From: Streptacidiphilus pinicola
Lineage (GTDB): Bacteria > Actinomycetota > Actinomycetes > Streptomycetales > Streptomycetaceae
Assembly: GCF_003258295.1 (NCBI RefSeq)
Contig: NZ_QKYN01000117.1
Span: 1 to 64,000 of the forward strand
Direction: 5' to 3'
Length of the DNA: 64,000 nucleotides
Made by a program: the position numbers and the translations under genes. Shown piece by piece: positions 57,297 to 62,836 of this stretch; the stretch's first letter is position 1, and every line of letters starts with the position of its first letter. The notes beneath the pieces are model-generated. The model saw only the letters and a list, made by a program, of their open reading frames with translations, ran no database searches and was not told where the DNA came from.

Positions 57297-58025
57297 TCAT
57301 CCTGGCAGCTGCACCAGCACGTTTCCGCTGCCGTCCACCACGGCCAGGCTCTGGATGTCCGAGGAGCCGACGGAGGTGGAGGCCGGGACCGTGGTCGCCG
57401 CGCTGTAGCCGGACCCCCACGTGCCGGCCGTCTCGGTGCGGCCGTCCCGGGCGTGGACGACCAGGTGGCAGGTGACCCCCAGGGGCAGGTTGCCCAGCTT
57501 GAGCTGCACCTGGGTGCCCCAGTTCTCCGGCGTCAGTGCCGCCGAGGCGGTCACGTGGGTGCCCGGGTCCACGGCGGACACCGTCGTGGTGGGACTCGCT
57601 GCGGTGGGCGTCGTCGGCTGTGCGCCCCCCACGTACACCCATGCGCCGACGGCCGCCGCCGCTCCGGCCAGCGCGACCCCGGCCGCGAGCAGCACCCGCC
57701 GCCGCGGCCGACGGTGGCTCGGGCGCGGGGGCGTCCCGGCGGCTCGCTGCCCGGCCGCCGGGATCGGCCCCGTGTGGGCTGCCGCGTGCGACGCGTCCTG
57801 CGACGCCTCGTGCGACGCGGTGAGGGTCTGCGCGGCGGCCGCGGTCTCCTCCAGCTCCTCGAACGGAGTCCGCCGCAGCAGGCCCGGCAGCGGCGCCATC
57901 GCCATCAGCTCCGCCTGGCACTCCGCGCACCCCGCGAGGTGCGCCTCCAGCGCCGCCCGTTCCTCGGGATCGAGGGCCCCGAGCAGGTAGGCGCCGAGCT
58001 GGACGCTCTCCTGGCATGTCGTCAT
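57297..58025 (-). CDS. Membrane anti-sigma factor with zinc-binding motif
   Basis: This 242-residue protein has an N-terminal anti-sigma domain with H29-x3-C33-x2-C36 (EAHLAGCAECQAEL), the zinc-associated anti-sigma signature. A linker follows, then one membrane span (about 111-132, VLLAAGVALAGAAAAVGAWV) and an outside domain (about 140-242) resembling the anti-sigma-K C-terminal sensor (ENWGTQVQLKLGNLPLGVTC, HLVVHARDGRTETAGTWG). It would hold the ECF sigma factor at the membrane until a signal arrives. Its ATG overlaps the sigma gene stop by 4 bp, so both are made in equal amounts. Confidence 0.9.
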   Translation of the reverse strand: MTTCQESVQLGAYLLGALDPEERAALEAHLAGCAECQAELMAMAPLPGLLRRTPFEELEETAAAAQTLTASHEASQDASHAAAHTGPIPAAGQRAAGTPPRPSHRRPRRRVLLAAGVALAGAAAAVGAWVYVGGAQPTTPTAASPTTTVSAVDPGTHVTASAALTPENWGTQVQLKLGNLPLGVTCHLVVHARDGRTETAGTWGSGYSAATTVPASTSVGSSDIQSLAVVDGSGNVLVQLPG

Positions 58026-58552
58026 CGGGATGTCACTCCTCTCTCCTCCAGAACGTTCCGTAGTGCCCGCAATCCGTAGTAGCAGCGGGACTTGACCGTG
58101 CCCGGCGGGATGCCCAGGTGCTCGGCCGTCTCGGCCACGCTGCGGCGCAGGTAGTAGACCTCGATCAGCACCTCGCGGTGCTCGGCGCGCAGGCCGCGCA
58201 TCGCCTCCAGCAGCTGCCAGCGCTCCAGCATCCGGTCCAGCTCCGCCTCGCTGTCGTCGGCGAGGCCGCCCCGGTCGTCCTCCGGTAAGGGCGCCTCGGC
58301 CGGTCTGGCGCGGGCCCGCCGGTAGGCGGAGACCGCCAGGTTGTGGGCGACCGTGTGCAGCCACGGCGCGGCCCGGTCGACGTCGAGCGCGTCCCGGTGC
58401 TGCCAGGCCCGCAGGAAGGTCTCCTGGGTCAGGTCCTCCGCACGCTGGTAGTCGCCGCCGACCAGTCTCAGCACATGACCGAGCACCGACCGTCCGTGGC
58501 GCGCGTACAGCGCGGCGACGAAGGCCGCATCCGGGGTCGGTGCGGAGTCCAC
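58022..58552 (-). CDS. ECF sigma factor
   Basis: This 176-residue extracytoplasmic-function sigma factor has region 2 (VAALYARHGRSVLGHVLRL, QRAEDLTQETFLRAWQHRD, APWLHTVAHNLAVSAYRRARA) and region 4 (EHREVLIEVYYLRRSVAETAEHLG, IPPGTVKSRCYYGLRALR). The GTG at 58552 has only GGAG at 2 bp, but lies 6 bp after the CGTACT -10 of the predicted self-promoter, so the message should be leaderless. The frame continues upstream without sigma-like sequence. It is encoded with its anti-sigma and faces a COG4315-type lipoprotein gene with a twin promoter. Confidence 0.92.
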   Translation of the reverse strand: MDSAPTPDAAFVAALYARHGRSVLGHVLRLVGGDYQRAEDLTQETFLRAWQHRDALDVDRAAPWLHTVAHNLAVSAYRRARARPAEAPLPEDDRGGLADDSEAELDRMLERWQLLEAMRGLRAEHREVLIEVYYLRRSVAETAEHLGIPPGTVKSRCYYGLRALRNVLEERGVTSR

Positions 58553-58555
58553 GTC

Positions 58556-58587
58556 TCCAGTACGCGCCCGCCGGGCGTTCGGTTCAA
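58556..58587 (-). promoter_or_regulatory. Predicted ECF promoter of the sigma/anti-sigma operon
   Basis: On the minus strand: -35 TTGAAC (58587 down to 58582), exactly 17 bp, then CGTACTGGA (58564 down to 58556), and the sigma start codon at once after. The same -35 type, spacing and CGTACTGGA appear in the divergent promoter, which supports autoregulation by this sigma factor. Confidence 0.72.
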
Positions 58588-58604
58588 GCCGCCGCCGGCT
58601 CGGG

Positions 58605-58636
58605 TTGAAAGCCGGCCCGCCGCGCGGCGTACTGGA
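58605..58636 (+). promoter_or_regulatory. Predicted ECF promoter of the lipoprotein gene
   Basis: -35 TTGAAA (58605-58610), exactly 17 bp, then CGTACTGGA (58628-58636). Predicted start near 58640 gives a leader of about 55 bases before the ATG at 58695. Confidence 0.72.
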
Positions 58637-58694
58637 AGGTGGGATCTTTCCCGACGCACGTCCGAGGGGCTGTGCCCGCTGAGGAGATGTGATC

Positions 58695-59209
58695 ATGAAA
58701 CCTCGACCTCTGCTCCTCGTCCTGCTCCTCACCGGCGCGGTCACGGCCGGCTGCTCGTCCGCCGGGACCAGCAACAGCGTCGGCGGGTCCGGCACGACGC
58801 CGCCCGCGAGCAGGACCGTCAGCCTCAGCACCTACGACGTCCTCGGCGTCGGCACCGTCGTCGAGGCGGGCGGCAGGGCCGTCTACTACAACGACCAGGA
58901 CTCGACGATCAGGATCCTGTGCGGGGCGGGCTGCGCGGGCGTCTGGACCCCGGTCACGGTCACGTCCGTCCCGCCGTCGATCGGCGGGATCAGCTTCAGC
59001 ACGGTCGTTCGCTCGGACGGTACCGAGCAGCTGGCCGAGCAGGGCCATCCGCTCTACACCTTCGTCCGCGACAAGGCGCGCGCGGACGCCAACGGCCGGG
59101 GAGCCACGGACGCCTTCGGCGGGCAGCCCTTCAGCTGGCACCCGCTGACCACGGTCGGTTCGACCCCCGGCACCACCCAGGCGCCGCCCCCGACCGGCGG
59201 TGCGGGCGG

Positions 59210-59216
<7 letters not shown>
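58695..59216 (+). CDS. COG4315-type lipoprotein
   Basis: This 173-residue lipoprotein has the lipobox TAGC with C20. The mature part has two repeats typical of the COG4315 'secreted repeat' family (Yx[FWY]xxD motif): GRAVYYNDQDSTIRILCGAGCAGVWTPV and GHPLYTFVRDKARADANGRGATDAFG, with the C-x3-C pair in the first. The ATG at 58695 is 8 bp after GAGGAG; an in-frame GTG at 58689 is too close. The gene is divergent from the sigma operon and shares its promoter type, so it is a predicted regulon member. Function is unknown; the family is extracytoplasmic. Confidence 0.88.
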
Positions 59217-61642: not shown

Positions 61643-62836
61643 GTGTCCGTGAGTGCCCGGCCGGGACGACTGAAGATGGCGGCCCTGGCCGTCCTGATCC
61701 CCACCCTGCTGTTGGCCGGCTGCTCGGGCTCCTCCGGGTCCAGCTCGGACGCGGCCCGCGTCTCCGCCGCACAGGTCACCCTCACGCCCGGCGACGGCGC
61801 CGCCGAGGTCCCGGCGCAGGGCGGCGTCTTCGCGCAGGTCCGGGCCGGCCGGCTGACCGCCGTCCACCTCAAGGACGCCGACGGCCACGAGCTCGCCGGT
61901 GCGGTCACCCCGGACGGCAGCAAGTGGAGCCCCACCGCCAAGCTGCTCCCGGAGACCCGCTACACGCTCGACGCGCTGGCCGTCGACAAGGACGGACTGC
62001 AGGCGGCGAAACACGCGTCCTTCACCACCTTCGTGCCGAAGAACACCTTCATCGGTTTCTACAACGCGGTGGACCGCAGCACGGTCGGCGTCGGCTTCAT
62101 CGTGGAGATCCGGTTCAACCGCTCGATCGCGGACCGCGCCGCGGTGCAGAAGGCGATCACCGTCACCGCCAAGCCGGCCGTCCCGGTCGCCGCCCACTGG
62201 TTCGGCGACCAGCGCGTCGACTTCCGCCCCGAGAAGTACTGGGCGCCCGGCACCCAGGTGACGCTCGCGCTGAACCTCAAGCACGTCGAGGGCGCCCCCG
62301 GCGTCTACGGGACGCAGTCGAAGACCATCGGCTTCACCGTCGGCCGCAGCCAGATCAGCACGGCGGACACCGACGCGGACACGCTCACCGTGGTCCGCGG
62401 CGGCCAGACCCTGCGCACCCTCTACATCTCCGCGGGCGGCCCCGGGCACTCCACCTACGACGGCATCATGGTCATCTCCGAGCAGGACCAGGTGACGAGG
62501 ATGGACTCGCACACCGTCGGCCTGGGCAGTGAGTACGACATCCCCGCCGTCCCGCACGCGCAGCGGCTGACCGACTCCGGCACCTTCGTCCACGGCGTCT
62601 ACTGGCGCTCGCCCTCCGTCTTCGGCCGGGAGAACACCAGCCACGGCTGCATCGGCCTGTACGACGCGGCGGGCGGCTACAGCGGCTCGACGCCGGCCGG
62701 CTGGTTCTTCGACCACTCCATGATCGGTGACGTCGTCCGCGTGGTGGGCTCCTCCGGCGACGCGGTCGCCCCGGACAACGGCATGAGCGGCTGGAACATG
62801 AGCTGGCAGGACTGGCAGGCCGGTTCGGCGCAGTAG
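61643..62836 (+). CDS. L,D-transpeptidase lipoprotein
   Basis: L,D-transpeptidases form 3-3 cross-links in peptidoglycan outside the membrane. The 397-residue protein has lipobox LAGC (C27), a Ser/Gly-rich linker, two Ig-like domains (about 42-135 and 135-245; the second with VDFRPEKYWAPGTQVTLALN) and a YkuD catalytic domain (about 245-375) with FVHGVYWRSPSVFGRENTSH and the nucleophile C336 in SHGC. Starts GTG at 61643; the GTG at 61649 is also possible. It is the first of two tandem paralogues. Confidence 0.93.
   Translation: MSVSARPGRLKMAALAVLIPTLLLAGCSGSSGSSSDAARVSAAQVTLTPGDGAAEVPAQGGVFAQVRAGRLTAVHLKDADGHELAGAVTPDGSKWSPTAKLLPETRYTLDALAVDKDGLQAAKHASFTTFVPKNTFIGFYNAVDRSTVGVGFIVEIRFNRSIADRAAVQKAITVTAKPAVPVAAHWFGDQRVDFRPEKYWAPGTQVTLALNLKHVEGAPGVYGTQSKTIGFTVGRSQISTADTDADTLTVVRGGQTLRTLYISAGGPGHSTYDGIMVISEQDQVTRMDSHTVGLGSEYDIPAVPHAQRLTDSGTFVHGVYWRSPSVFGRENTSHGCIGLYDAAGGYSGSTPAGWFFDHSMIGDVVRVVGSSGDAVAPDNGMSGWNMSWQDWQAGSAQ

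Follow-up and report, generated by a model that had tools for sequence, protein, structure and literature searches.

ECF sigma factors are numerous in the Streptomycetaceae, and often their targets are not known. In S. coelicolor, the sigma factor SigR is autoregulated and is paired with RsrA, a soluble zinc-finger anti-sigma factor with a cysteine at the first of its ligand positions. For SigL of M. tuberculosis and its anti-sigma factor RslA, the published account gives His25, His50, Cys54 and Cys57 as the zinc ligands of RslA, describes RslA as redox sensitive, and names genes for cell-wall and polyketide synthesis as those on which SigL acts (PMC2877774). According to a second paper, SigL prefers C-G-T-G at promoter positions -14 to -11, the G being read by Asp60 (PMC6372665), and a third warns that the zinc motifs of membrane anti-sigma factors may be structural (PMC7406223).

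Here, we analyze a SigL-like sigma factor, its membrane anti-sigma factor and a divergent lipoprotein gene from Streptacidiphilus pinicola, found in a stretch of 64,000 nucleotides (contig NZ_QKYN01000117.1, positions 1 to 64,000), which we call the window throughout. We argue that they likely belong to an envelope- or redox-related ECF circuit, its regulatory part being a computational prediction.

Results

The sigma gene (58022..58552, minus strand) encodes a protein of 176 amino acids and opens with a GTG located 12 nt past the C of CGTAC. Besides region 2 (PF04542) and region 4 (PF04545/PF08281), both scoring above cut-off, its product has no further sigma region, which places it among the ECF sigma factors. 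The nearest solved sigma factor is M. tuberculosis SigL (6dv9_F, E 9.4e-30), the next one, barring the fragment 3hug_A, following at E 1.1e-11. With NF007227 (PRK09645), which we take to be the SigL model, the window's protein scores 186.5 bits, below the cut-off of 202, and for this reason we call it SigL-like and not SigL.

The next gene (57297..58025, minus strand), whose start overlaps the sigma stop codon as ATGA, encodes a protein of 242 amino acids. A preliminary description of the locus had taken it for a membrane anti-sigma factor, and rightly so: it matches zf-HC2 at 42 bits (cut-off 22.2), and the nearest solved anti-sigma factor in profile comparison is RslA (3hug_B, E 1e-9). Its N-terminal domain is a zinc finger of the form C..HxxxCxxC and is followed by a single apparent membrane segment, as read from the sequence. 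C4, H29, C33 and C36 are invariant in all 11 aligned members; they comprise the H-x3-C-x2-C motif of zinc-associated anti-sigma (ZAS) factors and one extra upstream cysteine, C4. The protein also resembles the AS19-1 motif of PMC7406223, which we treat as no more than a lead towards the ECF19 group. The outer part is predicted to form a beta domain (pLDDT about 80-97), and its best structural alignments are with Cu/Zn superoxide dismutases (by VIA-align, Z 11.0 and rmsd 2.0 over 93 aligned residues). Searching with this predicted domain, Foldseek returned nothing at 0.001 (best E 0.04), and Pfam gave neither a superoxide dismutase match nor any credible family for it; the SodC model NF047632 was matched by 1 of 12 anti-sigma members (E 0.0045). 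We speak of a predicted Cu/Zn-SOD-like fold, bearing in mind that a shared fold shows no function.

Between the sigma gene and the lipoprotein gene lie two divergent sites. The predicted promoter of the sigma/anti-sigma operon (58556..58587, minus strand) consists of TTGAAC (58587-58582), 17 bp and CGTACT(GGA) (58564-58556), and that of the lipoprotein gene (58605..58636, plus strand) of TTGAAA (58605-58610), 17 bp and CGTACT(GGA) (58628-58636). Both sites, in other words TTGAAM, 17 bp and CGTACTGGA on each strand, lie exactly where the preliminary description had put them. The window holds TTGAAM-N17-CGTACTGGA two times, and 100 dinucleotide shuffles of it produced no match. The genome-wide search that it had proposed yielded 2 matches in 8.43 Mb, both of them the window's sites, with 0 in the reversed control. 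The shortened pattern TTGAA-N18-CGTACT has 3 genome matches (control 0), and TGAAC-N17-CGTAC has 9 exact ones, or 252 against 96 in the control if one mismatch is allowed. Of the eight exact matches besides the sigma site, four are not followed by a coding-like start at 8-170 nt and the other four are unconvincing, so CGTAC alone is a poor genome-wide signature. What is more, the M in TTGAAM masks a difference between the two sides, namely TGAACC before the sigma gene and TGAAAG before the lipoprotein gene, the latter fitting the conserved -35 box less well. Similarly, the identical 9-bp block is indeed present on both strands but exceeds the shared core. Namely, the unlinked sites described below share only CGTA, usually as GCGTA: this ending was found in 57 of the 68 sites read (of 71, from seven orthologue-bearing genomes), as compared with 3 of 26 in two genomes without an orthologue (G025 and G034). 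In most sigma orthologues, the TGG after CGTAC is retained as well.

Among 61 genomes searched, the window's own included, 17 carry an orthologue of the sigma factor at 70-100% identity, the next best relative standing at 55%. The preliminary description had staked its reading on the motif being present at such loci, and TGAAC-N17-CGTAC lies upstream of the sigma gene in 17 of 17, again including the window's own. Most spacer positions between the two boxes vary among these orthologues. The distance from the start codon to the C of CGTAC is 12 nt in 10 of the 17 orthologues and 13 nt in the remaining 7. If transcription starts 6-7 nt past a -10 hexamer, it would begin at the sigma start codon; judging from this geometry, the sigma/anti-sigma message is likely leaderless. 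Taken on its sequence, the sigma-side site fits a conserved ECF autoregulatory promoter. In 9 of 13 more distant relatives, the upstream site reads TGAAC..CGTG rather than CGTA, and in the other 4 no site was found; in one distant relative (L028), the GTG likewise lies 12 nt past the C.

The divergent gene (58695..59216, plus strand) encodes a Lipoprotein_15 protein of 173 amino acids, in agreement with the earlier identification: PF03640 is matched at 58.3 bits (cut-off 24.4), and a TAGC lipobox is present. COG4315 is presumably the COG number of this family. The stretch YTFVRD fits YxFxxD, and a CxxxC motif (C76, C80) is invariant in the five sigma-linked copies aligned. The AlphaFold model, computed from five sequences, was poor (mean pLDDT 38.6) and was set aside. 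Owing to a Shine-Dalgarno-like GAGGAG upstream of the gene, a leadered transcript is expected here. The window also encodes, at 61643-62836 (plus strand), an exported protein that resembles a lipoprotein and carries a Big_10 and a YkuD (L,D-transpeptidase) domain.

Do the twin promoters define the lipoprotein as part of the unit, as had been proposed? Only in part. An intact divergent Lipoprotein_15-type gene adjoins the sigma gene at 5 of 17 loci (G000, which is the window's genome, G003, G005, G010 and G018), and both promoter elements stand at the standard spacing in 3 of these 5 (G000, G010 and G018); in G003, the spacing is two shorter and the -10 element reads CGTGGC. Among the other 12 loci, there is a remnant in G007, a tandem copy in G002 and none in the remaining 10 (1.5 kb examined). 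The G007 remnant (L008) has lost its signal peptide, next to a sigma gene that is intact, as is its promoter. In G011, G023 and G036, a different ECF sigma gene is found no more than 2 kb from a COG4315-type match, which in G036 has an internal stop. In G016 and G031, twin divergent sites occur with no sigma gene recognised within 5 kb, and these two were left out of the counts.

The lipoprotein-side site could also be a vestige, that is, a promoter that has decayed in the window's clade and no longer controls the gene. We consider this reading a real but minority possibility. In particular, the -35 box runs from TGAAA (G000) and TGAAG (G010) to TGGAG (G005) and CGGAG (G007), being effectively lost in the last two, and the -10 block is retained in the first three; the truncated gene in G007 points the same way. 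Against it stand the full TGAACC-N16-CGTA on the lipoprotein side in G018, which belongs to another genus, and the arrangement in G049, from another family, where a SigL-like sigma gene and a Lipoprotein_15 gene are divergent with facing TGAAC-N17-CGTA sites. On balance, control of the lipoprotein gene by the plus-strand promoter appears plausible, with this control weakening in the window's species.

The preliminary description had further seen in the three genes a complete circuit, and this part did not stand, as the motif is also found ahead of additional envelope genes, among them those for more lipoproteins, DoxX and Rieske proteins. In seven genomes, TGAACC-N16-CGTA has 71 matches, as opposed to 9 for the reversed control, and the proteins downstream were grouped into families. 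Fifty of the 71 sites precede families that recur at at least 2 sites in different genomes: COG4315 lipoproteins (11 sites), the sigma factor (7), DoxX (6), Rieske (5), a second lipoprotein (5), a membrane protein with the motif VDAYVHADLAP (5), small membrane proteins (4 and 3), a SUFU-domain protein (2) and a secreted protein (2). The remaining 21 have no recurrent family downstream, and some sites lie inside genes. Part of the recurrence is inheritance, the genomes being related, but the spacers differ, which suggests that the boxes are held by selection. In this clustering, five clusters (one of 5 sites, four of 2) were dropped as shadows in another frame or on the antisense strand, and a single site was too close to a contig end to be read. 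Beyond the six linked loci, there are 23 distinct COG4315 loci, counting the tandem copy of G002, and 16 of them have TGAACC-N16-CGTA at most 330 nt upstream of the match.

Two of the predicted target genes match DoxX/DoxD (PF07681, PF04173) and Rieske (PF00355) above the Pfam cut-offs, both being redox proteins by family; the Rieske target is a lipoprotein with a Tat-like signal, as read by eye. In 11 of 37 genomes, among them that of the window, a DoxX and a Rieske segment are joined in a single open frame, which supports a joint role for the two. In the window's genome, though outside the window itself, the two segments (G000:C280:49269-50198) fall within one frame of 415 codons. The family with VDAYVHADLAPxYD (L192:1557-2039, minus strand; L310:2891-3379, plus strand) has no Pfam match; in G000, G001 and G002, its genes lie near one for a COG4315 lipoprotein, with a TGAACC-GCGTA site ahead of each. 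A lipoprotein family marked by AAYLAIA..NHRLDADFDRF (L191:1530-2039, plus strand), likewise with no Pfam match, stands behind the motif in 5 of the 7 genomes.

Which sigma factor reads these unlinked sites? The window's sigma factor could drive its own operon only, perhaps together with the neighboring lipoprotein gene, with another ECF sigma factor of overlapping specificity reading the rest; the window's genome holds 21 matches to the sigma factor at E <= 0.001. However, the GCGTA form tracks the orthologue. Namely, in the 17 orthologue-bearing genomes TGAACC-N15-GCGTA is found 128 times (control 3), as compared with 32 times (control 13) in 20 family members that lack an orthologue, or 0.88 versus 0.20 per Mb (Mann-Whitney p 6e-7, a value that is not independent, since the genomes are related). 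The G was added to the pattern after seven genomes of the first group and two of the second had been viewed; in the remaining ten orthologue-bearing genomes alone, the count is 68 against 2 in the control. The looser TGAACC-N16-CGTA gives 158 (control 16) and 113 (control 42) in the two groups, respectively. In G006, which is of the same genus but whose one relative of the sigma gene is broken, TGAACC-N15-GCGTA has 4 matches. In G049, TGAACC-N16-CGTA and its GCGTA form have 32 and 15 matches, far above its neighbors, and its own sigma factor is of the SigL-like kind; this genome may possibly hold an expanded regulon of a related sigma factor.

Individual target genes lead to a similar but more mixed picture. 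TGAAC-N17-CGTA lies upstream of the best DoxX match in 12 of 15 orthologue-bearing genomes examined (the exceptions being G018, G023 and G036) and is uncommon there in the others (3 of 15), which again argues against a sigma factor confined to its own locus. For the best Rieske match, the counts are 12 of 13 orthologue-bearing genomes examined (the exception being G002) and still 8 of 17 others, and in G034, which has no orthologue, the Lipoprotein_15 gene carries TGAACC-N16-CGTA. The persistence of these sites means that another sigma factor can read similar ones where this one is absent. In genomes that lack the orthologue, the nearest SigL-like sigma factors were tried as drivers of the Rieske sites and rejected, since none of 18 sigma frames had TGAAC-N17-CGTA upstream; the search covered 20 regions, two of them from orthologue-bearing genomes, with 19 sigma frames in 17 regions and no frame in L266, L269 and L273. 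Taken together, we hold it to be rather improbable that the window's sigma factor is confined to its own locus, and we prefer the reading in which it serves the unlinked sites as well. Finally, the 9-bp block is indeed present as an inverted repeat in the two window sites, but that they serve a dyad-binding regulator as its operator, in place of being promoters, is so improbable that we reject it, given the single, unpaired, gene-facing sites before unlinked genes with their TGAAC box at fixed spacing, the lack of a divergent partner at 10 of 17 orthologous loci, and the constant 12-13 nt to the sigma start codon.

Discussion

The sites, their conservation, orientation and spacing, their enrichment and the target families all come directly from the computation, and the following model builds on them. 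A SigL-like sigma factor would be held at the membrane by its zinc-finger anti-sigma factor until an envelope or redox signal frees it, whereupon RNA polymerase carrying it would read TGAAC(C)-N15-GCGTA promoters. At its own promoter, the transcript would start at or beside the GTG or ATG, that is, in a leaderless manner, and would provide positive feedback together with co-production of the anti-sigma factor. The holoenzyme would also read the divergent lipoprotein promoter, a weakened copy, and the unlinked promoters of COG4315 lipoproteins, a DoxX/DoxD-like membrane protein, a Rieske lipoprotein and small membrane or secreted proteins. Together, these genes would resemble a set for surface electron transfer or redox protection. 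That the window's sigma factor is the reader of all the sites is something we infer from the sequence patterns, and the redox nature of the signal is likewise inferred. As a whole, the circuit of a SigL-like sigma factor and a zinc-finger anti-sigma factor, with autoregulation and unlinked envelope and redox targets behind TGAAC(C)-N15-GCGTA, strikes us as quite probable.

A narrower version would combine the SigL-like sigma factor and a zinc-thiol anti-sigma factor with a SOD-like outer domain with a dedicated regulon for surface electron transfer, made up of a DoxX-type quinone-linked protein, a Rieske lipoprotein and COG4315 lipoproteins with CxxxC. We put this forward tentatively and would sooner expect it to be wrong than right. 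If true, it would give the COG4315 family, whose function is unknown, a physiological setting. Even without it, the analysis links this secreted Lipoprotein_15/COG4315 family with DoxX and Rieske proteins, and the motif yields a promoter consensus open to testing, a geometry that is conserved and probably leaderless, and a named set of targets. In the open-licence literature, we found no report of DoxX or Rieske control by a SigL-like ECF sigma factor and, judging by titles and abstracts, nothing relevant on COG4315/Lipoprotein_15 with ECF sigma factors, on SigL with TGAACC, or on a Streptacidiphilus sigma factor; a paper on H. influenzae RpoE2 reportedly mentions DoxX.

How does the locus compare with the known systems? 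Like RsrA, the window's anti-sigma factor has a cysteine at the first ligand position, but unlike the soluble RsrA it apparently spans the membrane and carries an outer domain, and with the RsrA model TIGR03988 it scores only 20.3 bits (cut-off 62.5). It shares with SigL-RslA the adjoining sigma and anti-sigma genes and the H-x3-C-x2-C motif, whereas its first zinc-ligand candidate is Cys4 where RslA has His25, and its predicted targets are COG4315, DoxX and Rieske genes in place of the cell-wall and polyketide synthesis genes given there for SigL (PMC2877774). The -10 element opens with C-G-T, as SigL prefers, while the base at -11 is A in 17 of 17 sigma promoters here, in contrast to the preferred G (PMC6372665). 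The stretch of loop L3 between two tryptophans has 13 residues in 17 of 17 orthologues, all with CGTA, and 15 residues in 13 of 13 distant relatives. Loop length alone as the cause of the A at -11 is undercut, however, by long-loop sigma factors standing beside CGTA sites (L305 of G056 and L309 of G049, by eye). In summary, the kind of system is a known one, and what is new, measured against the open-licence literature, is this member of it, its base at -11 and its predicted redox-type regulon.
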